Position numbers and translations under genes: made by a program
The notes under the pieces: model-generated
What the model was told of the DNA's origin: nothing
Database searches by the model: none
What the model saw: only the letters and a program-made list of their open reading frames with translations
Virus record (IMG/VR): IMGVR_UViG_3300035156_000375
Coordinates: 1-31,170 of that record
Length of the DNA stretch: 31,170 bases
Origin: a virus
Strand: one strand, 5' to 3'
In this document: positions 292-26,569 of the stretch, in pieces
Numbering within the stretch: position 1 is the first letter of the stretch
Layout: every line of letters begins with the position of its first letter

Positions 292-1126
292 CCACTGGCA
301 GCGGGCCGTCGAAGTTCACGCGGCGAACCATCCCGCCGCGCAACATGCCTGCCAGGACCTGCAACAAGCCCACTGGCGTGACGTACCCGCGCACGACATC
401 ATGCTTGCGTCGCCATGCTGCCAGGGCCACAGCAAGGCGCGCGGCAAGGCCAACGGCAATCCGCAGCACGATTCCAGTCGCTCAACCGCCTGGGCGCCCG
501 TAGCGGCGGCCGAATACCACCGTCCTGACGCATTCGTCATCGAAAATGTTTTGGATTTCACCCGCTGGACCCTGTACCCGGCGTGGGTCGCGGCGATGGA
601 GGCACTCGGCTACTGCCTTGCGCCGCACATTATCGACGCAGCCGATCACGGCGTGCCGCAGCACCGCGAGCGGCTGCTGATCGTCGGCACGCGCAGCAAG
701 AGCCCGCTGATGCTGCAATTACCGATCCGGAGCTACGTGCCTGCGAGCTCTTTCATTGACTTTGGCGCCGGAAAATGGCAGCCGATCGAGAAGCCTGGGC
801 GCGCGCCATCGACACTGCGCCGCGTCGCCGCCGGCCGCGCCGCGTTCGGCGATCGCTTCCTGATGCCGTACTACGGTGGCGGCTCCGGCCTGACCGGCCG
901 CAGCCTGAGCCGTCCAGTGGGCACCATCACCACGCGCGATCGGTGGGGCGTTGTAGACGGCGACCGCACGCGGATGCTCAGCAAAGAAGAGTGCCGTGCT
1001 GCGATTGGATTCCCCGCCGACTACATCTTGCCAGTCAAGCACACGGAGGCGGTTCACATGCTGGGCAACGCTGTTTCGCCGCCGATGATGCGTGACGTTC
1101 TACTGGCAATGCAGGCGGCCGCATGA
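260..1126 (+). pseudogene. Cytosine-C5 DNA methyltransferase, N-terminally truncated
   Basis: The reading frame shows C5-MTase motifs in order: the catalytic-cysteine loop SPCCQGHS (motif IV), VIENVLDF (motif VI, ENV), QHRERLLIVGTR (motif VIII), RPVGTITTRDRWG, then HMLGNAVSPPMM (motif X). The cofactor-binding motif I (DLFxGxGG) that should precede GAEMAGVDVVWAGNHW is absent. The frame upstream of base ~255 is antisense to integrase codons and is not methyltransferase-like. An in-frame ATG at 260 would give 288 residues without the SAM glycine loop, so it is probably inactive. It overlaps the next gene by ATGA, as in an intact operon. It most resembles orphan phage Dcm-like enzymes that modify phage DNA. 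Confidence 0.85.
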
Positions 1127-1557
1127 TCACCCAGCTCGCATTCAACCTCTCGGCCGGCACCGCCGCGCTTCTGGAGCTCGACAACGCTGCCCGCGCCCGC
1201 GCGCACTGGCGCAGCGGCATGGTCACGAGCCTGCCGCTGTTCTGCGAAATCGAAGGGATTGGGGGCCGCTACAGCTACATGCTGCCGGGCGTGGTCGAAG
1301 CGATCGCCGGCGACTTGGCCGACGTGCGCATCTACGCGGCGCCGGAGTACGGCTACGTGCTGGAGGGCTACCCGCTGCACCTGGCGCTAGCCGTCGACGT
1401 GCCGCTGAGCGACCTGGGCCGGTGCTACTGGCACTCGGAATTGCAGCGCATCGCCGACGAAGGGCTGCTGGTCACCGGCGACGCGCAGCTGGCCGCCGAG
1501 GTGCGCGCCCGCGCGAACTGCACGCATGAGCGCGAAATTGCGCAGGTGCCAGCATGA
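1123..1557 (+). CDS. Hypothetical phage protein (144 aa)
   Basis: The start ATG overlaps the methyltransferase stop (ATGA), the standard coupling of this operon. The protein is 144 residues, mildly acidic, without signal peptide, membrane segment or a motif I recognise. It has an aromatic, Gly/Tyr-rich middle (EGIGGRYSYMLPG, YAAPEYGYVLEGYPLH). The codon pattern matches the flanking phage genes (strong G/C in third positions). Its place between a DNA methyltransferase and small early genes suggests an accessory early function, but no function can be assigned. Confidence 0.7.
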   Translation: MITQLAFNLSAGTAALLELDNAARARAHWRSGMVTSLPLFCEIEGIGGRYSYMLPGVVEAIAGDLADVRIYAAPEYGYVLEGYPLHLALAVDVPLSDLGRCYWHSELQRIADEGLLVTGDAQLAAEVRARANCTHEREIAQVPA

Positions 1558-1559
1558 AT

Positions 1560-1889
1560 TTATTCCTCCAAATCGTCTGCGGCTGGGAGCACGCGTTCGA
1601 TCGGATCTTTGCCGTTTGCCCTAACGACATCAAAAGCGTCGTTCGCGCTATCGCTAGCGACAATCCGCCCCTCAAGCTGCCATTTATCACCTTCTTCGAC
1701 TATTGCCCACACTTCGCCGTCAACGCCTTCAATGTGCTCAAGCACATCGTCAGCCGTCAATACGGTCTTGTCATCGGGGCGAAACCACGAACCCCGCTCT
1801 GGCATTCCGGCCTCGCCGAGCTTCGTAAGGAATTTTCGTTCGGTTGCCGCGTCGGCTTCGCGGATCGCATGGATACCAAGCACTTTCAT
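1560..1889 (-). CDS. Small acidic hypothetical protein, antiparallel in early operon
   Basis: A 109-residue acidic protein on the strand opposite the operon. The start is well supported: GAGGAG lies eight bases upstream of the ATG at 1889. The C-terminal half is rich in Asp/Glu (DDVLEHIEGVDGEVWAIVEE) and looks like a real soluble protein. The opposite-strand frame of the same stretch is open but has implausible composition. It is the first of four such small minus-strand genes wedged between coupled plus-strand genes. No family is recognised. It must be transcribed from its own promoter, which I could not define with confidence. Confidence 0.7.
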   Translation of the reverse strand: MKVLGIHAIREADAATERKFLTKLGEAGMPERGSWFRPDDKTVLTADDVLEHIEGVDGEVWAIVEEGDKWQLEGRIVASDSANDAFDVVRANGKDPIERVLPAADDLEE

Positions 1890-1929
1890 AAAACACTCCT
1901 CAACAAGTTAAAAGAAAGGCAAGCATAGC

Positions 1930-2358
1930 ATGATTTATGACCTCGCCCGGGCCTAGCGCATTCACCGCGCCATCAACGCGGAAAACACGCCGGTATCGCT
2001 CTTCCCGAAGCGCTGCGTCTGCGGCAAGCGCGCCTTCGCCAAGCAGCTCGCGCAGTACGGCGTTTGCATCGCCTGCCAGCTGGCCGCGCGCGTTGCTTCG
2101 CTAGAGCCGGAAGACCTGATCAACCTAAAATTCATGCTGGGCGTTAAGCAGGCGCCGCGCTCGACGTGGGGCAACCGCAACGTCTACCTGTGCAACCGCC
2201 GCGACCGGCCGTCGATGGAGCGCCTGGTCACGGCCGGCTTCGTCCGCGCCGGCGAGCAGATTCTCCAGCTGCGCTACTTCCACGCGACGGCGGCCGGGTG
2301 CAAGCTGGCCGGGCTCAATGCGACAGCGCTGCGCCGCGCGCTGGGGGATCGGCCATGA
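1930..2358 (+). pseudogene. Zinc-ribbon-like phage hypothetical, interrupted by amber codon 9
   Basis: The frame opens at ATG 1930, meets TAG at 1954-1956 (codon 9), then continues without another stop to TGA 2356-2358. The post-TAG sequence is plainly protein-like: RIHRAINAENTPVSLFPKRC, a putative zinc knuckle CVCGK...GVCIAC, then SMERLVTAGFVRAGEQILQL and YFHATAAGCKLAGLN. From memory this resembles a recurrent small phage early protein of about 140 residues that combines a Cys4 ribbon with a winged-helix-like tail. The only downstream ATG (2134) would drop the Cys motif. The stop overlaps the ATG at 2355 (ATGA). It is either a nonsense pseudogene or a read-through gene. The simplest ancestral codon is CAG. 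Confidence 0.7.
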
Positions 2359-2396
2359 CGGCACTCAAAGGAATCGCCGAGCCGAGCGGCGCCAAT

Positions 2397-2666
2397 TCAG
2401 AAGAATTCGGTTTCAGCTTGGCTATGTGCCCGCTTCACCTCGCCGGAATCAATAATCTTCTCGGCAAATTCGCGCGCCATCACGCGGGCCTCGACCTTTC
2501 GTTTTGCGCTGCCGGGAATATTGATTACATGCGGCGGCTTGAGCAAATCACCACCGGCCTTCAACCGGACGAGCGCTATGTACGGGCGCCAGTCGCCGGA
2601 AACCTCTTGATAGGCTGTGGCAGAAAAGTCGTATCCGTTATACGAGATCACGCTACAAAGTTCCAT
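2397..2666 (-). CDS. Small hypothetical protein, antiparallel in early operon
   Basis: An 89-residue protein read against the operon. The frame is open further upstream (to 2963), but that extension is Arg/Pro/Cys-rich antisense of the plus-strand gene at 2699, so the ATG at 2666 is chosen. A weak GGGAAA precedes it. The sequence has the pattern of a small beta-alpha protein: VISYNGYDFSATAYQ, then GDWRPYIALVRLK, then a helix AREFAEKIIDSG. The minus-strand gene at 4704-4973 has a similar plan (YKGYTIVI... then a helical tail), so the two may share a fold. Function unknown. Confidence 0.7.
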   Translation of the reverse strand: MELCSVISYNGYDFSATAYQEVSGDWRPYIALVRLKAGGDLLKPPHVINIPGSAKRKVEARVMAREFAEKIIDSGEVKRAHSQAETEFF

Positions 2667-2698
2667 GTATTTTCCCGAAATTTTGATTGGATCTTTGC

Positions 2699-2968
2699 AT
2701 GAGCCCGTCGTTAGCAAACCACGGCGCTGGACAAGCTCGGCTCCGCTACGACGATTCCCACGAAAGCCGCGCGATGGCCCAGCACCGTGCCCGCAAGCAG
2801 GCGCAGGCCGGCGCCGAGCGCAGCCAAGCCGACAGCGACCGCTACAACGGCGCGCTGATGCGCCGCGACCCGCAGTTGGTGCGGCTGCTGAAGGCTTTTT
2901 CGGCGGTGGCTGATGATCAGCGCGAGGCGTTTGTAGAGCGGGCCGTTGCTGGGACTGCAGCATGCTGA
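2699..2968 (+). CDS. Small basic hypothetical phage protein (89 aa)
   Basis: The start at 2699 (MSPSLANHG) is chosen over an ATG four codons upstream because phage-like composition begins here. The centre is a long charged helix rich in Arg, Gln and Ala (MAQHRARKQAQAGAERSQAD), followed by a shorter helix (DPQLVRLLKAFSAVADDQRE). The stop lies inside ATGCTGA with the next potential start at 2962. No Cys, signal peptide or membrane segment. Early-operon position only; no family recognised. The 145 bases after it (2969-3113) hold no convincing gene. Confidence 0.6.
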   Translation: MSPSLANHGAGQARLRYDDSHESRAMAQHRARKQAQAGAERSQADSDRYNGALMRRDPQLVRLLKAFSAVADDQREAFVERAVAGTAAC

Positions 2969-3113
2969 CCGCTGTGCTGACCGGTCAATACGCGGTCCAC
3001 GAGAGACCGCAAGGCCGCATCCCCACGGCGTGCAGTGCTATTGGCCAGAACCACAACCCCGTTCTTGTTGCCGATTGCATGTTTCATGCCGGTATCGGCG
3101 GATTACTACCGGC

Positions 3114-3428
3114 TCAAAATCTCCTTATTATCCTGAATGGAGCGCGATGCGTTGAGTCATTACATTTAAGAGATATCACTAAATCGTTCGTTGGCTCACT
3201 GCGTGAGTGGTGCCCAAGTGCCACTCGTGCGGCATCCTCACTCCGCTCGGCTAGCGTTCTGACCGCTGCCCATTTGCCGAATTCAAACTTCAGGTCATAT
3301 CGAGCACCTTCATTTCCGTCTTCATCGATAAGCCATGCAAACGCTATCGCCGAGTTACTAACCTCCGTCCTAACGATCTGCGTTTGCAGCGCGCTAGTTT
3401 CGAACTCCATGTGGGTGACACTGGCCAT
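3114..3428 (-). CDS. Small hypothetical protein, antiparallel in early operon
   Basis: A 104-residue frame starting at ATG 3428 (MASVTHMEFETS). The frame opens 26 codons earlier, but that stretch overlaps the start region of the divergent plus-strand gene at 3462 and lacks a Shine-Dalgarno. The protein has alternating beta-like segments (SAIAFAWLIDEDGNEGARYD, LKFEFGKWAAVRTLAE) and a basic tail. Upstream of 3428 only a weak GCGAG is present. It is the least certain of the four antiparallel genes, because its codons are not in complementary register with the plus-strand frame and base usage is less biased. No function can be assigned. Confidence 0.5.
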   Translation of the reverse strand: MASVTHMEFETSALQTQIVRTEVSNSAIAFAWLIDEDGNEGARYDLKFEFGKWAAVRTLAERSEDAARVALGHHSRSEPTNDLVISLKCNDSTHRAPFRIIRRF

Positions 3429-3461
3429 CAGGATCTCGCTTGCTAAAAAGGTAAATATAAC

Positions 3462-4520
3462 ATGAACCAAGCTGATATTTTCAGCGCCGGCTCCAGGCGC
3501 CTGCAAATGACCGACTCAATCGAGATGACCATCCAGTCGCTTCTGACCTATGGCGCCACGCACAAGCACTGGGGCGTAGCCTGGGCGGGTGGCAAAGACA
3601 GCAGCGCCACTTTGACGTTGATCACCTGGCTGCTCGACACCGGCCGCGTGCCGCGTCCCAAGTCGCTGACCGTCTTCTATGCCGACACTCGCCAGGAGCT
3701 GCCGCCGCTGGCCATCGCAGCGCGCCAGATCATGGACGAGCTGGAGGAGCGCGGCATCCGCGTTGAGGTCGTCACTGCTCCAATGGAAAAGCGGTTCATG
3801 GTCTACATCCTCGGGCGTGGCGTGCCGCCGCCGAACAACAACACGCTTCGCTGGTGCACGCGTCAGATCAAGATCGATCCGATGCAGCATGCTCTCGAAG
3901 CGCGTCTCGACCAACTGGACGGCCAGATCCTGATGATCACCGGCGTGCGCCAGGGGGAAAGCGCCATCCGCGATCAGCGAATCGAGATGAGCTGTAGTAA
4001 GGACGGCGCCGAGTGTGGTCAGGGTTGGTATCAAAAGGTGCTGCCGGAGGCGAAGGGCTTGCGCGGCCGGCTGGCCACCTTGGCGCCGCCGCTGCACTGG
4101 CGCGTCTGCCACGTGTGGGAGTGGCTCCGGCACTGGGCGCCGACGGTCGAGTTTGGCGACTGGAGCACGGCCGCGATTGCCGAAGCCTACGGCGGCGACG
4201 AGGCGGAGGAGATTAATGCGCGGACTGGCTGCACTGGCTGCCCGCTGGCCGATACCGATATGGCGCTCGACAACATCCTGCTGAACCCGCAATGGGCGTA
4301 CTTGGCGCCGCTCAAGCGCATCAAGCCGCTATGGCGCGAGCTGCGGCTTCCGCAGCACCGGCTGCGTAAGGCCGGCTTGGAAATCCTCAAAAGCGGCAAG
4401 GTCGCGTCGAACCCGCAGCGCATGGGGCCGCTGGCATTCGAAGCTAGGCTGATGGGCTTGAACGAGATTTTGAGTATTCAGCGTGACGTCAACGAGACGG
4501 CGCGCCACCGGCCGGCCTGA
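3462..4520 (+). CDS. PAPS reductase / DndC-like ATP pyrophosphatase family protein
   Basis: The 352-residue protein has a PP-loop (AGGKDSS, residues 42-48) that binds ATP in the PAPS-reductase superfamily, an ADTRQELP element near 75-81, Cys132 in RWCTRQIK, TGVRQGES near 165, and a late Cys pair CTGC (257/260). A Cys after the PP-loop plus a late Cys pair is what Fe-S-binding DndC-type proteins show. In phages this family is unlikely to serve sulfate assimilation. A role in DNA or RNA thiolation or other nucleotide modification is the usual guess and fits the two methyltransferases nearby. ATG 3462 follows an A-rich AAAAAGG leader; ATG 3507 is a possible shorter start. It overlaps the next gene by 38 bases. 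Confidence 0.85.
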   Translation: MNQADIFSAGSRRLQMTDSIEMTIQSLLTYGATHKHWGVAWAGGKDSSATLTLITWLLDTGRVPRPKSLTVFYADTRQELPPLAIAARQIMDELEERGIRVEVVTAPMEKRFMVYILGRGVPPPNNNTLRWCTRQIKIDPMQHALEARLDQLDGQILMITGVRQGESAIRDQRIEMSCSKDGAECGQGWYQKVLPEAKGLRGRLATLAPPLHWRVCHVWEWLRHWAPTVEFGDWSTAAIAEAYGGDEAEEINARTGCTGCPLADTDMALDNILLNPQWAYLAPLKRIKPLWRELRLPQHRLRKAGLEILKSGKVASNPQRMGPLAFEARLMGLNEILSIQRDVNETARHRPA

Positions 4521-4689
4521 GATCGATCTTATCAACGCCGAGGAGGAGGCGCGCATCAGGGAGTTGATTGACCTTGAAACTTGGCCTGATGGTTGGGCCG
4601 GCGACGAGCCGATCGCAACGACGATCATGGATACGATCTATGCGAACGGCGCGGTGCAGCCCAGACTATTTTCCGAAAGCGACTTTTGA
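4483..4689 (+). CDS. Small acidic hypothetical protein (68 aa)
   Basis: The frame begins inside the 3' end of the PAPS-reductase-like gene (38-base overlap) and ends at TGA 4687-4689, overlapping an ATG at 4689. It has a short basic N-terminus, then a charged helix (NAEEEARIRELIDLETWPDG) and an aliphatic C-terminus. The composition is plausible for a real small phage protein, but no family is recognised. The overlapping start suggests translation coupled to the upstream gene. Confidence 0.55.
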   Translation: MTSTRRRATGRPEIDLINAEEEARIRELIDLETWPDGWAGDEPIATTIMDTIYANGAVQPRLFSESDF

Positions 4690-4703
4690 TGAAGCCAAAA
4701 TAT

Positions 4704-4973
4704 TCAGTCGGCCGTTTGAGCGTCAATCCATTCATGCGTCAGCTGAGTTGCCCTTCCAATCGCGCTGGCGCAATTCGAATGGTTCTCGTCGGCAATTCCT
4801 TGATACTTCTGCGGAAGAATCACTGTCTCCGTAAAGGTGTCGGCAGTCTGACGCCGGTGCACACTGAAGCGAGCACCAAAGCCATGAAGGCCTTCCGTGG
4901 CAATGATTACGATCGTGTACCCCTTGTATTCGTGGGCGTCCAATTCTTCGATAACACCTTGAGTATTTTCCAT
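4704..4973 (-). CDS. Small hypothetical protein, antiparallel in early operon
   Basis: An 89-residue protein with the best start of the antiparallel set: GGGGAG five bases before ATG 4973. Its core HEYKGYTIVIIATEGLHGFG followed by ARFSVHRR resembles small DUF-type phage/host proteins with a 'Y-x-G-Y' beta hairpin, and the C-terminal helix (SAIGRATQLTHEWIDAQ) repeats the plan of the gene at 2397-2666. Mildly acidic, soluble, no motif of known catalysis. It lies between two plus-strand genes whose starts and stops are otherwise spaced for coupling. Confidence 0.75.
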   Translation of the reverse strand: MENTQGVIEELDAHEYKGYTIVIIATEGLHGFGARFSVHRRQTADTFTETVILPQKYQGIADENHSNCASAIGRATQLTHEWIDAQTAD

Positions 4974-5005
4974 CTTGCTCCCCGTATTCGAATCGGGATT
5001 CTACC

Positions 5006-5458
5006 ATGATGCGCCGCAGCCCCATGAAGCCCACCAGCGCGCCGATGAAGCGCACCGGGATGGCGCGCAAGCCGGCCGACGCCACCGGCGTGCTGCGCGT
5101 CCAGTCATTCGACCGCGAGAAGAAGGCGCGGCGGCCGATGAAGTCGACGCGGCCGAAGATGACGCCGATCCGCAAGGCCGCGCGCAATGAGGATTGCACG
5201 GTCCAGCTGCCGGGCATCTGTAACCGCGACCCGGCCACGTCTGTCCTCTGCCACAGCAACGCACTGGCGGACGGGAAGGGCATGGGTCTGAAGACGCCGG
5301 ACACTGCGGCGGCATTCGGCTGCAGCGCCTGCCACGACGTGCTGGACGGCCGGCGGCCGCGTCCGGCATGGCTGTCGAAGGATCAGGTCGACGAAGCTTT
5401 CCGCGCCGGCATCGGCCTCACACACGCAGTTTTACGAATGAAAGGTCTGATCGAATGA
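5006..5458 (+). CDS. YbcO/DUF1364-type phage nuclease
   Basis: 150 residues. After a basic, Met/Lys/Arg/Pro-rich N-terminal 55 residues comes the conserved core: RKAARNEDCTVQLPGICN, H83, then CSACHD (C106, C109, H110). This Cys-His pattern is that of E. coli YbcO (DUF1364), a small HNH/beta-beta-alpha-metal DNase fold found in lambdoid nin-type regions. It probably acts on DNA during recombination or packaging. Two adjacent ATGs (5006, 5009) are possible starts. The stop overlaps the next gene in ATGATG. Confidence 0.85.
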   Translation: MMRRSPMKPTSAPMKRTGMARKPADATGVLRVQSFDREKKARRPMKSTRPKMTPIRKAARNEDCTVQLPGICNRDPATSVLCHSNALADGKGMGLKTPDTAAAFGCSACHDVLDGRRPRPAWLSKDQVDEAFRAGIGLTHAVLRMKGLIE

Positions 5459-5802
5459 TGAAACGGGGATTGCAGGCGCTCGGCCGGCTCAAGGTCGGTG
5501 CCATGAACAAGACGGAGGCCGCGTATGCCGCGACGCTGGAGCTGCGGCGCGCGGCCGGCGAGGTCGTCTGGTTCAAGTTCGAAGGGCTGAAGTTCCGGCT
5601 CGCGGACAACACGTTCTACACGCCGGACTTCGCGGTGATGCTGGCCAGCGGCGCCATGGAAGCGCACGAGGTGAAGGGCTTCTGGCAGGACGACGCGAAA
5701 GGGAAGATCAAGATCGCCGCCGATATGTACCCGTTCCGCTTCATCGCCATCAAGGTCAGGGCGAAGAAGGACGGCGGCGGCTGGGTGATTGAAGAATTTT
5801 AA
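5455..5802 (+). CDS. DUF1064-like PD-(D/E)XK nuclease-fold protein
   Basis: 115 residues beginning in ATGATG overlapping the upstream stop; an upstream extension to 5368 is antisense-like and rejected. The signature is NKTEAAYAATLE, then YTPDF (Asp58) and HEVKG (Glu72-x-Lys74), the PD...ExK arrangement of restriction-endonuclease-like folds, with conserved K-x-K and PFRFIAIK after it. Phage DUF1064 proteins have this layout and are presumed nucleases (Holliday-junction or VRR-like) in the recombination module. Pairing with a YbcO-type gene supports a recombination or end-processing role. Confidence 0.8.
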   Translation: MMKRGLQALGRLKVGAMNKTEAAYAATLELRRAAGEVVWFKFEGLKFRLADNTFYTPDFAVMLASGAMEAHEVKGFWQDDAKGKIKIAADMYPFRFIAIKVRAKKDGGGWVIEEF

Positions 5803-9091: not shown

Positions 9092-10501
9092 TTATTCTTT
9101 GATCATCGTCGCGCGAACGGTGCCTGCTTGATTAGCGGTGTTCCTAACGTAAATCGCCAAGGATCCACCTTCGGGCCACGTCACTGCCTGCGATTGTCCG
9201 TTTGTCAGTGCAGGAGTTTGATACTGCCCTGGAGCAGCACCATTGACAAAAATTGCGAAGCGCAGTGACGCGCCTCCAGTCCCGGTTACCGTGAAGCGGT
9301 ATTTTGCACCCGCAAGTGGTTTCGCCCAGAGTACGCCCGTTTCGCCTGGAACGCTTGCGCTGACACCCCATCCATTTCCGTTTAGTTGTTCAAACGCAGC
9401 CCCGGCGGCGAGCTCGAGATTGCCGGTGTTAGCGTTGTAGGTGACCGGCTGAGTCCATGTACCACGCATTGAAAGCATATTGAAATTGCTTGGCTTGTCA
9501 GCGGTAGTAGGTTGTCCGTTGCCGTCCACGTAACTATATGCAGTCGTCACTTGCCGCAGATTCTTGCGTATTTTCTGCAGTTCGTCGCGGACAGCCTGTT
9601 GGGACCCCGTTGGTACTCCCGCAAAGATATCGAAATTTGCGCCAGTCTCCACGTAAATAAAATAGGGTGTACAGATATTTTCGTCCACCACTCGCGCGCC
9701 AAATGTCTTCAGCGTCTGAACTACTTTTTGGAGTGTGGGATTTTGAATGCCCATTGTGTAATCAGCAGGCAACATCAGTAGCGCGCCTTCCGGGATGGTG
9801 CCGGTGTGATTCGTCGCGGAATAAAGATCGGAACGCGTCGCAGGGTAGATATATGTTGGCTGGCCGTTTTTCCCCGCCAAGCCCTCCTGCGCCAATGACA
9901 TAGCCAAGGCATGGTTATAAGAATCGTCGCCATCGTCGACTTCGTGAGCGCGAATAATGCCCGCCATTGGCGGAACTCCAACTGCGCGGCTGCCTTGATA
10001 ATAGCGTGACGGGTCGCCCCATCCCCGGCCGCCGATAGTGGTCCAAGCGTACGCGCGCGCGCGCCAGAGTCCATTTACTTGCTTCAAACCCCAGAAGCTG
10101 TGTATTTTGCCAGTAGAATTATCGAAGATATCGGCGTGGCCGTCGCCGCCCCACGCAGGAGTTACGGCCGGTGGGAAGTGCGGTATTGTGATCGATGGAA
10201 CATTTCTGACCGAATCTAATTCCCGGATGCCAGATTCTGTAAGTATAGGATAAACGATCATTGGCGGATTTTCGGCTGTAGCTTGAAAAATCGGCGGTCC
10301 GAGCTCGGCGTTCGGTTCGATGCGCGGACCGCAAGTACCCTTTAGCTGGTCTTCCAGACCTAGCACTGGACCGATCGGGCGGATGTTCCATGGCGAATCT
10401 GCTGCGAAAGGTTTTTCGAACGTCCCAAATGCCGCGCTCGTTTGGGCATGCGCGTTTGCAGCGAGAAGAAGAGCAACTATTGACGCAATTTGTTTTTTCA
10501 T
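9092..10501 (-). CDS. Secreted protein of unknown function (469 aa), prophage cargo
   Basis: A clean Sec signal peptide (MKKQIASIVALLLAANAHAQ) starts the protein; the start follows AGAGG on the minus strand. Residues 30-290 form a globular domain with conserved-looking blocks: WGGDGHADIFD, IHSFWGLKQVNGLWRARAYA, a Gly-rich turn, RAVGVPPMAGIIRAHEVDDG, HALAMSL, and later KTFGARVVDENI. This pattern recalls secreted bacterial proteins of unknown function, possibly carbohydrate-active. Residues about 345-469 look like a beta-sandwich, perhaps carbohydrate binding. There is no membrane anchor or PEP-CTERM tail. It is monocistronic, antiparallel to phage genes and flanked by AT-richer DNA (10502-10680), the layout of a lysogenic-conversion moron. 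No phage structural role is apparent. Confidence 0.8.
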   Translation of the reverse strand: MKKQIASIVALLLAANAHAQTSAAFGTFEKPFAADSPWNIRPIGPVLGLEDQLKGTCGPRIEPNAELGPPIFQATAENPPMIVYPILTESGIRELDSVRNVPSITIPHFPPAVTPAWGGDGHADIFDNSTGKIHSFWGLKQVNGLWRARAYAWTTIGGRGWGDPSRYYQGSRAVGVPPMAGIIRAHEVDDGDDSYNHALAMSLAQEGLAGKNGQPTYIYPATRSDLYSATNHTGTIPEGALLMLPADYTMGIQNPTLQKVVQTLKTFGARVVDENICTPYFIYVETGANFDIFAGVPTGSQQAVRDELQKIRKNLRQVTTAYSYVDGNGQPTTADKPSNFNMLSMRGTWTQPVTYNANTGNLELAAGAAFEQLNGNGWGVSASVPGETGVLWAKPLAGAKYRFTVTGTGGASLRFAIFVNGAAPGQYQTPALTNGQSQAVTWPEGGSLAIYVRNTANQAGTVRATMIKE

Positions 10502-10705
10502 TTTAATCCGCCTCTAAAAAGGGAAAGTCCCGCGAGGACTCTACCCTTAATTGTCAATTTGAAATCTATTCAATTGTCACAACTCGCAGATTTATAATCT
10601 ACGCAAAGAAAGCACTAAGATTTAAGTTGCCGCAACGCTTGTTACAGGGTTGTATACGTTATTGCCTTGTGATACTGTCTGCATCGTCTTCAAAGGAGCA
10701 ATTGC

Positions 10706-11244
10706 ATGGGCTTTGCCGATCGGTACGTTAGCAGTCTAAATTCCAGTACGTTGTAGGACGGCGAGGAGCACCACTCGGCCGAGCCGCTGTTCGCAGCTGC
10801 GGTTGCGGACATGGCTGGCGCCGGTCTGGGCGCGCTGCTGACGCGGGTGCAGTTCGCCGACGGCTCGATCCGCAAGACGTCCGAGTCGGGTACGCAGAAC
10901 CTGGCGCAGCTGCTGCGCATCTGGACGATGGCAGTGATCGAGAAGGGCCGGGCGCGCCGCTGGGTTCGCGACGAGGGTATCCACCGCAGATCGCTGGCGC
11001 GCTGTACGTGCGCGTGGCCGACGCTTCGCTGGCCCATTGGCTCGACGGCCACTGCAAGACGTGCGCGGGCACCGGCGTCACCGCGCTACTCGGCAACCGC
11101 GCGTGCACGGCGTGCAAGGGCACCGGCAAGGCCGAGCTCACCGGCATGCGCGAGTACGAGAAGAAGCTGGCGCTCGACATGGTCAGCGAGTTGTCTGCCT
11201 TGTGCGACAGCCACGCGCGCCGCGCCACCGCCCGGCTGCGCTGA
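10706..11244 (+). pseudogene. Q-like antiterminator candidate with DnaJ-type zinc finger, doubly broken
   Basis: ATG 10706 follows AAAGGAG. The frame meets TAG at 10754-10756 (codon 17) and then reads DGEEHHSAEPLFAAAVADMA and TRVQFADGSIRKTSESGTQN up to WVRDEG. Near 10979-10986 the natural sequence switches by -1 to PQIAGALYVRVADASLAHWL and a zinc-finger pair CKTCAGTG...CTACKGTG, ending at TGA 11242-11244. Paired CxxCxGTG motifs occur in DnaJ and in one class of phage Q antiterminators. Position at the end of the early region, directly before a promoter-terminator unit, favours Q, but this is inference. With both lesions no full protein can be made without recoding. Confidence 0.65.
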
Positions 11245-11269
11245 CAAAAAAACGGATCGCGTGAACTGG

Positions 11270-11298
11270 TTGTAAACACAGTGATTTTGGTGTAGAGT
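11270..11298 (+). promoter_or_regulatory. Candidate late promoter (pR'-like)
   Basis: TTGTAA and TAGAGT are separated by 17 bases, directly after the Q-like gene. The predicted start is near 11305, about 150 bases before a strong terminator. The order gene Q, promoter, short leader, terminator is that of lambda late control. The -10 element is only a 4/6 match, so this is a candidate. Confidence 0.45.
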
Positions 11299-11339
11299 GA
11301 GGTTCTACGCTTTTCAGTAAAATTTCCTTCGGAATCGTA

Positions 11340-11420
11340 ATGTCCGGCGCAAGCTGGCAACCATACCCGAAGCTCGCGACAGTACCCGGCCCAGCGCCGT
11401 ACCTGCTCGCACTGAAATAA
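11340..11420 (+). CDS. Very small open frame in late leader (26 aa)
   Basis: ATG at 11340 with GGAA five bases upstream, ending at TAA 11418-11420. The peptide begins MSGASWQPYPKL and is Pro/Ala-rich with no charge pattern of a known toxin or leader. It may simply be a chance frame. It is listed because it lies entirely within the predicted leader RNA. Confidence 0.25.
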   Translation: MSGASWQPYPKLATVPGPAPYLLALK

Positions 11421-11458
11421 GCGTCACCCACTTCGCAGATAGCGCTGGGGCACTCTAA

Positions 11459-11480
11459 GCCACCCATGCGGTGGCTTTTT
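11459..11480 (+). terminator. Rho-independent terminator (tR'-like)
   Basis: GCCACC-CATGC-GGTGGC followed by five T. A perfect six-base-pair stem and U-tract on the plus strand, downstream of the candidate late promoter and between it and the convergent PEP-CTERM gene (stop at 11523). Confidence 0.85.
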
Positions 11481-11522
11481 CTATTGTGGCATCAGGTAAT
11501 TGACGCTACAGCGCCTACTGCG

Positions 11523-12095
11523 CTATATAGCTTTGCGCGATCTGCGAACGCCAATGAGGATTAAGCCTACGAACATCATGTCGAAGGTGCCCGGCTCTGG
11601 AACCGCGCTTGTGAACTGAGCGAAATAAGTTTCGTTTCTTGTTTCCAGTCTATATGGTGGTGTTTCCAATATATTAGCCCGTCCGTAAGGCTGCATTACC
11701 GATGTAAAGTCGCCAGGCTTTCCGATTACGAAATCAACTTCCCGAGGACAATCGGTGCAATAAAAGCCACCGAGGTAGGGCACATTGTAGTAATACGGAT
11801 CTATCCCAACGTATGGCTTTGGAAAAGACACTAGGTAGTCGGGCTCATAGTCATCATGATAGCTTCCTATGTATGAGAAGCGAAAAAAACCGTCTTGAGT
11901 GAGGGTTATTTTGCCTGTGATGACTCCATTTGGCGCCAGCTCGAAATGAACCTTTGCGAAGCTCGGTATTATCTCCGTCTCTGACTGGCCCCTTATAAGC
12001 AGTTCGGTAAAGTAGACGTCCATAGTGTCGGCTTTGGCTGCGGTGCTTGAAATCAGCACGATAGATGAGAGTAGTGCAAAAATTAATTTTTTCAT
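11523..12095 (-). CDS. PEP-CTERM sorting-domain exoprotein (190 aa), prophage cargo
   Basis: The N-terminal signal peptide is MKKLIFALLSSIVLISSTAA, cleaved near AKA. The mature part is Tyr/Pro-rich with beta character (GFFRFSYIGSYHDDYEPDYL) and a CTDC pair near the middle. The C-terminus is a textbook PEP-CTERM signal: AVPEPGTFDMM, a short hydrophobic helix (FVGLILIGV) and RRSRK. Such proteins are recognised by the host exosortase (EpsH/XrtA family) and exported to the surface or matrix, usually with exopolysaccharide production. No exosortase is in the window. It is monocistronic, has its own promoter (12125-12153), sits between the late terminator and small late genes, and is markedly AT-richer than phage genes. 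Confidence 0.9.
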   Translation of the reverse strand: MKKLIFALLSSIVLISSTAAKADTMDVYFTELLIRGQSETEIIPSFAKVHFELAPNGVITGKITLTQDGFFRFSYIGSYHDDYEPDYLVSFPKPYVGIDPYYYNVPYLGGFYCTDCPREVDFVIGKPGDFTSVMQPYGRANILETPPYRLETRNETYFAQFTSAVPEPGTFDMMFVGLILIGVRRSRKAI

Positions 12096-25363: not shown

Positions 25364-25987
25364 TTATTTCTGTTTTCGGCGGCGAGCAAAGGCGCCCATG
25401 AAACCCAGACCTGCTAGAAACATTGCGTAAGTCTCAGGTTCTGGAACCGCAGAAGGTATCTGTGGAATCGGCGTGGGCGCATTCGGACCGACGGGTTCAT
25501 TAAATCGCAGATCATCCAGTGCTACGACGTGCAATAACGAACCCATTACGATGAAATTGATGTTCGCAAAGTCGAGGGTGTACGTCGTGTAATCGTTGGT
25601 GACGTGTAATGCTTGCGAAAAGGCCGGATGCTGGGCGTGCACATCCTCTTTGAAGTATGCCGTGATGTAGACATCATCGGTTGCTCCTTCAATATAAGTG
25701 CGCACCGAAAGGCTATTTAATGTGAAATCAGCGCCGGTAGCGCTACGGATCACTGGGAACGCCTCGTTATAAATAACCATTACGCCGGTGCCAGACTGAG
25801 CGACTGGTGAATAGTGCGTGTAATTAGCTCTGCTCCAGCTAAGTCCCGCATACGTCGAAGGCATTTGCTCAATGAAGCCAGTGTCAGGTAAGTCTTCGAA
25901 ATCAATAGTTGTTGCTTTAGCAGCGAAGGTCAGCGAAAGAATTGCGGACAATCCTGAAGTAATGATGATTCGTTTTAAGCTAAACAT
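25364..25987 (-). CDS. PEP-CTERM sorting-domain exoprotein (207 aa), prophage cargo
   Basis: The start at 25987 is chosen because GGGGAGG precedes it and a signal peptide begins there (MFSLKRIIITSGLSAILSLT, cleaved near AAKA); the longer frame upstream is not protein-like. The mature domain is beta-rich (TIDFEDLPDTGFIEQ, SLSVRTYIEG, DDVYITAYF, TYTLDFANINFIVM, VVALDDLRFNEP), like the jelly-roll domains common in PEP-CTERM proteins. The end is VPEPETYAMFLAGLGFMGAF then RRRK, a complete exosortase signal. It is monocistronic, antiparallel and AT-richer than the phage genes. An extended -10 (TGCTAATAT) lies upstream on the minus strand within 26010-26025. It is expected at the cell surface or in the matrix. 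Confidence 0.92.
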   Translation of the reverse strand: MFSLKRIIITSGLSAILSLTFAAKATTIDFEDLPDTGFIEQMPSTYAGLSWSRANYTHYSPVAQSGTGVMVIYNEAFPVIRSATGADFTLNSLSVRTYIEGATDDVYITAYFKEDVHAQHPAFSQALHVTNDYTTYTLDFANINFIVMGSLLHVVALDDLRFNEPVGPNAPTPIPQIPSAVPEPETYAMFLAGLGFMGAFARRRKQK

Positions 25988-26065
25988 GCGCCTCCCCTGG
26001 AGTTGTAATGTTTGCAATATTAGCACGGAAGTCTGTAGAAATTGGATGATTTTATGGCGAAAGTA

Positions 26066-26569
26066 ATGACACTTATTGTTGAGGCAGGCATGGGTCTGCC
26101 GGATGCCGAGAGCTATGCCAGCGTGGCGCAGGCGGATGCATATCACGCGAAGCGCCTCAACACCGCGTGGGCGGCGCTCGCCGAGCCGACCAAGGAATCG
26201 CTGCTGATCAAGGCAACGGAATACATGGTCGGCCAGTACCGCGAGCGCTGGAAAGGTCGGCGCCGCACGTCAACGCAGGCGCTGGACTGGCCGCGCTACG
26301 ACGTCGAGATGGATGACGTCGAGGCTTACCTCGGCGCGGACATTGTGCCGGTCGAGGTGCAGAACGCATGCGCCGTCCTGGCGCTTCAAGCGAACAGCGG
26401 CGACCTGGCGCCGGCGCTGAAGCGCGCGATCAAGGAGAAGGTCATTGGCCCGATCAAAACCGTCTACGCCGACGGCGCACCGGAATTTGTCCGGTACCGC
26501 GCGGTCGACCAGCTGCTCAAGCCGTTCCTTTGCGGGTCTGGCTTGACCGGCCGAATGGTGCGGTCGTGA
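26066..26569 (+). CDS. Head-tail connector / DnaT-like (DnaT_2) phage protein
   Basis: 167 residues from ATG 26066 (MTLIVEAGMGLPDAESYASV); ATGs at 26054 and 26042 are alternative starts without homologous sequence. The pattern QADAYHAKRLNTAWAALAEP, LLIKATEYM and QALDWPR is that of the family annotated 'DnaT-like ssDNA-binding', which in phage gene order is a gp6-type head-tail connector. The first ~25 codons are AT-richer and differ from the remnant at 25291, so the 5' end was replaced or rebuilt with the cargo insertion. It is coupled to the next gene through GTGA. Confidence 0.75.
   Translation: MTLIVEAGMGLPDAESYASVAQADAYHAKRLNTAWAALAEPTKESLLIKATEYMVGQYRERWKGRRRTSTQALDWPRYDVEMDDVEAYLGADIVPVEVQNACAVLALQANSGDLAPALKRAIKEKVIGPIKTVYADGAPEFVRYRAVDQLLKPFLCGSGLTGRMVRS

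Follow-up and report, generated by a model that had tools for sequence, protein, structure and literature searches.

How can genes be carried backwards inside a phage operon without loss of the operon's own expression? The question is raised by IMG/VR virus record IMGVR_UViG_3300035156_000375, analysed here over its positions 1 to 31,170 (31,170 nucleotides, referred to as the window). This 31 kb record is a prophage with a plus-strand early operon in which four small genes lie on the minus strand between plus-strand genes, and each of the four is covered on the plus strand by a long open frame, or bridge, that runs from the preceding stop to the following start. From the evidence set out below, we consider it probable that the operon is of the noncontiguous type and that its antisense stretches are kept translatable, an arrangement in which lytic transcripts would escape polarity while lysogeny genes are read in the opposite direction.

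All four frames reported in the initial annotation are present, and their eight ends fall on neighbouring stops or starts, at ATGA, ATGCTGA or TGATG overlaps or across a gap of one base. Bridge 1 (1554-1928, 124 codons) starts in an ATGA shared with the upstream stop, covers the minus-strand gene m1 (1560-1889, 109 amino acids) and ends with the TAG at 1926-1928, one base before the ATG at 1930. Bridge 2 (2355-2702, 115 codons), which has ATGA at both ends, the second with the ATG at 2699, covers m2 (2397-2666, minus strand, 89 amino acids). Bridge 3 (2962-3465, 167 codons) starts in an ATGCTGA overlap, ends in an ATGA with the ATG at 3462 and covers m3 (3114-3428, minus strand), whose start may be at 3428, giving 104 amino acids, or at the ATG at 3410, giving 98. 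Bridge 4 (4689-5009, 106 codons), running from a TGATG overlap to an ATGA with the ATG at 5006, covers m4 (4704-4973, minus strand, 89 amino acids). The codons of the two strands are in exact complementary register (register 0) for m1, m2 and m4, the three of four that the initial annotation had counted; m3 is in another register (2). TTA, CTA and TCA are the codons whose complements are stops in the complementary register, and none of them occurs in the 109, 89 and 89 codons of m1, m2 and m4.

The window was recoded by keeping the minus-strand proteins and the real flanks and drawing synonymous codons from phage genes matched for guanine plus cytosine (GC) content at third codon positions (GC3). 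The probability of reaching the same stop was 0.17, 0.21, 0.08 and 0.41 for bridges 1 to 4. Because the product is about 1.2e-3, the window alone is suggestive only, and it was the comparative tests in relatives that decided whether the bridges are due to chance.

Related loci were fetched by the PAPS-reductase-like gene (160 loci) and by the gene for the DUF1064-type nuclease (80 loci), and their genes were called with a home-made, simple codon and ribosome-site caller. A slot was defined as a run of minus-strand genes of 50 codons or more that is flanked by a plus-strand gene on each side, with gaps of at most 150 bases. A bridge was defined as a plus-strand frame, or coupled chain of frames, whose start lies on the stop of the upstream gene and whose stop lies on the start of the downstream gene. 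Identical runs entered the count a single time, and codon expectations were taken from binned tables. Antisense genes nested between operon genes, four in the window, fill 185 early-operon slots in the relatives, and the cassette layout recurs in dozens of prophages; among named lysogens, bridged slots are present in Duganella aquatilis FT26W (L082), Duganella lactea FT50W (L083) and Variovorax ginsengisoli CGMCC 1.12090 (L093). Bridges were found in 99 of the 185 early slots, compared with 26.7 expected by synonymous recoding (P ~ 3e-77, with slots treated as independent). The excess was seen in Oxalobacteraceae-like PAPS loci (33 of 46 slots, 7.7 expected), in other PAPS loci (27 of 73, 7.9 expected) and upstream of DUF1064 (39 of 66, 11.1 expected). 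Late-region slots downstream of DUF1064, an internal control from the same loci, showed no excess (2 of 23 bridged, 1.1 expected). The initial annotation had named bridging at similar frequency in synonymously shuffled sequences as the outcome that would speak against its reading; the recoding gave the opposite result in the early region. Two slots were miscalled (L027 7514-7867, YbcO, and L012 9582-10217, HNH); they were dropped from the junction and composition analyses and are still counted in the 99 of 185.

The bridges vary in form. One bridge may cross two or three minus-strand genes over 339-392 codons (L008, L057, L058, L121), and in 11 slots the passage is divided among at least two successive bridges that are coupled one to another (for example L003 7230-7526 and 7523-7921; L164 7864-8163 and 8160-8561). 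The complementary register was found for 101 of 112 minus-strand genes. Of the junctions between plus-strand genes, 65% overlap or abut near bridges and 28% do so in the late region, a difference compatible with co-transcription across the antisense genes. In three slots (L012 5213-5998, L013 5395-7230 and L017 7227-7676) the open frame crosses the minus-strand gene but does not end at the next start, and reads on in phase into the gene that follows.

A second comparison was made within a single group of cargo proteins. The largest cargo family, probably phrog_33632, has 22 members with one N-terminal membrane helix and the motif DWxxWVQAxGSIxAI; proteins of this type (WVQAxGSIxAI) are antisense cargo in many loci. 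Structure prediction gave a confident helical model (predicted local distance difference test score, pLDDT, 88) with no match in the PDB at E <= 0.001, so no function could be assigned. For this control, 79 loci (L242-L320, some overlapping the earlier contigs) were fetched by the cargo sequence itself, irrespective of the operon genes. TTA, CTA and TCA were entirely absent from 38 of the 72 called family genes, compared with 1.07 expected from leucine and serine content and GC3, while seven control codon sets gave no excess of zero-count genes among the same 72. The 25 bridged members contain 2 of these codons in total against 126 expected, and 24 of them contain none; the 40 unbridged members contain 227 against 271 expected. 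The same family thus avoids the three codons in one context only.

Which of the two strands encodes protein was addressed by family scans and by substitution patterns. Among 110 minus-strand proteins, some matched the Pfam families DUF1488, BrnT, BrnA, HicB-like, DUF4145 and DUF1508, as well as PHROG toxin-antitoxin families. The 99 bridge proteins gave essentially one Pfam match, the HNH miscall of L012, the matching member being deduced from its slot. Across 20 homologous pairs, the ratio of nonsynonymous to synonymous substitution rates (dN/dS), where calculable, was 0.03-0.43 for the minus strand and 0.5-3.7 for the plus frame. The minus-strand synonymous rate (dS) was about 1-2.5, so that bridges have been kept open despite near-saturation of the synonymous sites of the cargo. 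By these sequence measures the minus-strand genes are real genes, and the bridging frames conserve the absence of stops only, with no constraint at the protein level. A scan against a defence-system library returned a single marginal match, PD-T7-4. In alphaproteobacterial prophages, two bridged cassettes (L104 802-1479 and L120 8755-9522) hold HicAB-like and BrnTA toxin-antitoxin pairs.

The antisense genes are exchangeable units with a recurrent boundary. Homologous cargo was found in different slots, without exception on the minus strand in the loci examined, and one slot may hold different cargo in different loci; GC content is 0.55 in the cargo and 0.63 in the operon genes. Of 101 bridges, 87 begin 3 bases ahead of the last base of the upstream stop codon (ATGA, GTGA or TTGA), and 78 have a stop that reaches 3 bases past the first base of the following start (ATGA); the distances from cargo start to next operon start cluster at 29-38 bases. 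An 18-base junction combines the ribosome site of the downstream gene, the ATGA overlap and a predicted extended -10-like promoter for the minus-strand gene. Its consensus on the operon strand, AAAGGAATCGTAGC-ATGA, comprises a ribosome site (AAGGA) and the coupled stop and start; read backwards, TCATGCTACGATTCC corresponds to the extended -10 promoter consensus (TGnTAnnAT) and is the predicted cargo promoter. The TANC that precedes the ATG in the junction AAGGAATCGTAGCATGA was present at 84% of 43 bridged junctions compared with 2% of 322 ordinary ATGA junctions in the same loci, and a -10-like hexamer, predicted by its match to the consensus, in 85% of 55 slots compared with 6% of control stretches. 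In the window, the predicted minus-strand elements are TGCTATGCT for m1 (1922-1930, overlapping the plus-strand start codon at 1930), a weak TGCAAAGAT for m2 (2691-2699), TGTTATATT for m3 (3454-3462, overlapping the PAPS start codon) and TGGTAGAAT for m4 (4998-5006, overlapping the YbcO start codon); TANC is present in slots 1, 3 and 4 (as TAGC, TAAC and TACC), and slot 2 is weaker. At the level of sequence, these comparisons establish that frames free of stops and coupled at their ends are selected for, that the minus strand is the coding one, and that the junction element is present.

These features suggest a model in which the early lytic operon contains modular antisense cassettes, each with at least one small lysogeny ("moron") gene in reverse orientation. 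Transcription of the cargo in the lysogen would begin at an extended -10 promoter of its own, which overlaps the start codon of the operon gene that follows. Upon induction, the operon transcript would cross the cassettes; ribosomes that have finished the upstream gene would begin again at the bridge start (ATGA or GTGA), make a disposable peptide while crossing the antisense stretch, and pass at the ATGA from the bridge stop to the next operon gene. Such ribosome cover would spare the long lytic transcript from Rho termination or from attack as naked antisense RNA, and the bridge would keep the downstream genes translationally coupled where an untranslated gap would break the coupling. The antisense stretches are richer in C than in G on the operon strand (p 5e-20), a composition that would favour Rho loading. 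Since the complementary register requires only the synonymous avoidance of TTA, CTA and TCA, a bridge would come at no cost to the cargo protein. We suggest that coupling and protection both count, since protection alone would not call for a stop placed exactly on the next start, as coupling does. The initial annotation had likewise proposed that ribosomes could run through the antisense regions and maintain coupling, and frames that are open, encode no conserved protein and end on neighbouring stops and starts agree with what that proposal predicts. We infer from this arrangement that the bridges are translated, that ribosomes reinitiate, that Rho or RNase III is the selective agent and that the cargo is expressed in lysogeny; toxin-antitoxin cargo is consistent with the last of these.

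Other explanations for the frames were weighed against this model. DNA of high GC content makes little use of TTA, CTA and TCA, which often leaves a frame in complementary register free of stops, and ATGA overlaps are a frequent feature of phage operons, so that the bridges might reflect nothing but chance and base composition. The window, mildly improbable at about 1e-3, would permit this explanation, and the initial annotation had itself cautioned that codon bias alone can open such frames. The caution holds for about 27 of the 185 early slots, which GC-rich codon usage does open, but not for the remaining excess among the 99 observed, nor does composition explain why late slots lack that excess or why one low-GC3 family is divided into two states, with 38 zero-count genes where 1.1 were expected. 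Chance was rejected on the synonymous recoding, the late-region controls and the within-family codon test, and we give it almost no credence. Alternatively, the bridges could be genuine protein-coding genes forming overprinted pairs with the cargo, or the minus-strand genes could be spurious, given that long frames with proper starts and coupled ends resemble ordinary operon genes and that a few slots (the YbcO and HNH cases above) were miscalls of just this kind. About 1 in 99 bridge proteins matches Pfam, however, and that one is the miscall, while minus-strand proteins match HicB, BrnA/BrnT, DUF1488 and others and are the better conserved member in homologous pairs; on the family scans and dN/dS this explanation was rejected and is very improbable.

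A third possibility accepts that bridges are translated but holds that their translation mainly blocks pairing with the cargo mRNA, and thereby RNase III, or stabilises the transcript as a silencer of the cargo, rather than opposing Rho. It makes identical sequence predictions for the openness of the frames, the cargo promoter and the lytic transcript overlap fully, and mutual regulation of the two transcripts is known from noncontiguous operons of S. aureus (PMC7154746; PMC11087260). Pairing alone would not, however, oblige the stop to fall exactly on the following start codon (78 of 101), and knock-out of RNase III in 80alpha gave similar differences between mutants (PMC11087260); we regard this possibility as unlikely, though less so than the two already discussed. 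Three observations weigh against the model of coupled, protective translation itself. The loci are related, so that the slot counts are not wholly independent events. About 46% of early slots are unbridged, some through miscalls and others apparently genuinely, so that a bridge is not universal. Finally, 72% of downstream genes carry their own Shine-Dalgarno 4-mer, for which reason coupling is possibly supportive and not essential.

The proposed arrangement can be compared with several known systems. The noncontiguous operon (Saenz-Lahoya et al. 2019) likewise has an opposite-strand gene, with its own promoter (predicted here), inside a run of genes; in the case described from S. aureus the stretch of operon RNA opposite the antisense gene is not translated (PMC7154746), whereas here the antisense region is a coupled open frame, predicted to be translatable on account of its openness, in 99 of 185 early slots and all four slots of the window. 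In prophages, a noncontiguous layout is known to keep genes for lysogenic immunity apart from the expression of lytic genes (Tha/Ith, PMC11087260; Tai/Ati, PMC11364771). The accessory genes of Tha/Ith (S. aureus 80alpha) and Tai/Ati (E. coli phi80) are, as proposed here, antisense to lytic or lysogenic operons and expressed in a mutually exclusive manner, but they form a single antisense pair each, unlike the interchangeable cassettes in several slots here, and they lack bridging frames: every plus frame across 80alpha orf11, ith-1 and phi80 ORF63 is interrupted by 3-15 stops, and phi80 ORF65 likewise has no bridge. The cargo resembles the morons of temperate phages in being small, variable and low in GC, with a predicted promoter of its own and with toxin-antitoxin pairs among its members; it consists of extra genes between conserved phage genes that differ among relatives and in base composition. 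Unlike morons, the cargo is antisense to its host operon, its predicted promoter is fused to the next start codon, and the operon strand has a stop-free passage across it.

Stop/start overlaps at both ends of the bridge are shared with ATGA translational coupling (PMC12548453), and the overlap geometry, with the start on the upstream stop in 87 of 101 bridges and the stop on the downstream start in 78, is that of coupled cistrons; the difference is that the intermediate cistron here has no conserved product and runs opposite a real gene. Antisense is not mentioned in a 2025 review of such coupling (PMC12548453). Long open frames antisense to a gene are likewise known from pop, laoB and olg1/olg2 (PMC7103648, PMC5810103, PMC9936078), where functional proteins are claimed for both strands, whereas the plus frames here, with dN/dS of 0.5-3.7 and essentially no family matches, lack the protein-level constraint expected if both strands encoded selected proteins. 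Bridged antisense genes were not found described in a literature search whose coverage left out most subscription papers. Among cultured relatives, Bcep176, F116, phiV10 and phiC725A have no antisense genes between co-directional operon genes beside DUF1064 or PAPS, and a phage-collection search with one member of the main cargo family gave no match; hence no cultured model phage was found. Searches of viral contigs with the single cargo proteins m4 and m1 recovered no relatives.

In the window prophage, the plus-strand early operon comprises, in order, a remnant cytosine methylase, genes A, B and C, the PAPS-reductase-like gene, a YbcO/HNH nuclease gene, the DUF1064 nuclease gene and a second methylase. 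Gene A (1123-1557, plus strand), which shares its stop with the start of bridge 1, has a 55% homologue at L003 4566-4931. Gene B (1930-2358, plus strand) is broken near its start by an in-frame TAG at 1954-1956; the gene is intact in relatives (for example L002 5304-5735), and the TAG is a nonsense mutation of the window prophage. Gene C (2699-2968, plus strand) encodes 89 amino acids. The PAPS-reductase-like gene (phrog_12882; 3462-4689, plus strand), whose nearest named relatives are in Duganella and Janthinobacterium, is frameshifted near 4483-4520, with 3462-4520 corresponding to phrog_12882 positions 2-347 and 4483-4689 to positions 348-403. The YbcO/HNH nuclease gene (5006-5458, plus strand) follows bridge 4, and the DUF1064-type nuclease gene (5455-5802, plus strand), the second anchor for fetching relatives, comes next. 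Among the cargo, m2 has a weak similarity to DUF6566 (E 0.066, below the cut-off), and m4 has a minus-strand homologue, 43% identical, in the same slot of L008. At the left end (1-1126), a C-terminal integrase fragment adjoins the N-terminally truncated cytosine methylase, a deletion scar. The TAG in gene B, the PAPS frameshift and the truncated integrase against the truncated methylase indicate that the prophage is decaying; all four bridges are intact despite this decay. The late part of the prophage contains minus-strand genes for secreted and PEP-CTERM-like proteins (9092-12095 and 25364-26146), possible lysogenic-conversion cargo, without bridges.

On balance, we lean towards regarding the bridges as a general phage element, "dummy cistrons", frames selected solely to carry ribosomes over the antisense strand of another gene. 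If so, they would belong to mobile cassettes with a standard junction of triple function (ribosome site, coupled start and reverse promoter), and any number of lysogeny genes could be nested backwards in a lytic operon without polarity. Open reading frames opposite a real gene would then be strongly selected for translatability and not for an encoded product, a trap for annotation, in which either strand may look like the gene, and equally for proposals that antisense strands encode proteins. Whether translation shields antisense transcription from Rho could then be tested directly by single synonymous changes, and the junction consensus, together with the TTA/CTA/TCA signature, offers a simple route to further cassettes. 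For temperate phages, the arrangement suggests how lysogenic and lytic programmes may be held on opposite strands of the same DNA without truncation of the phage's own lytic transcript.
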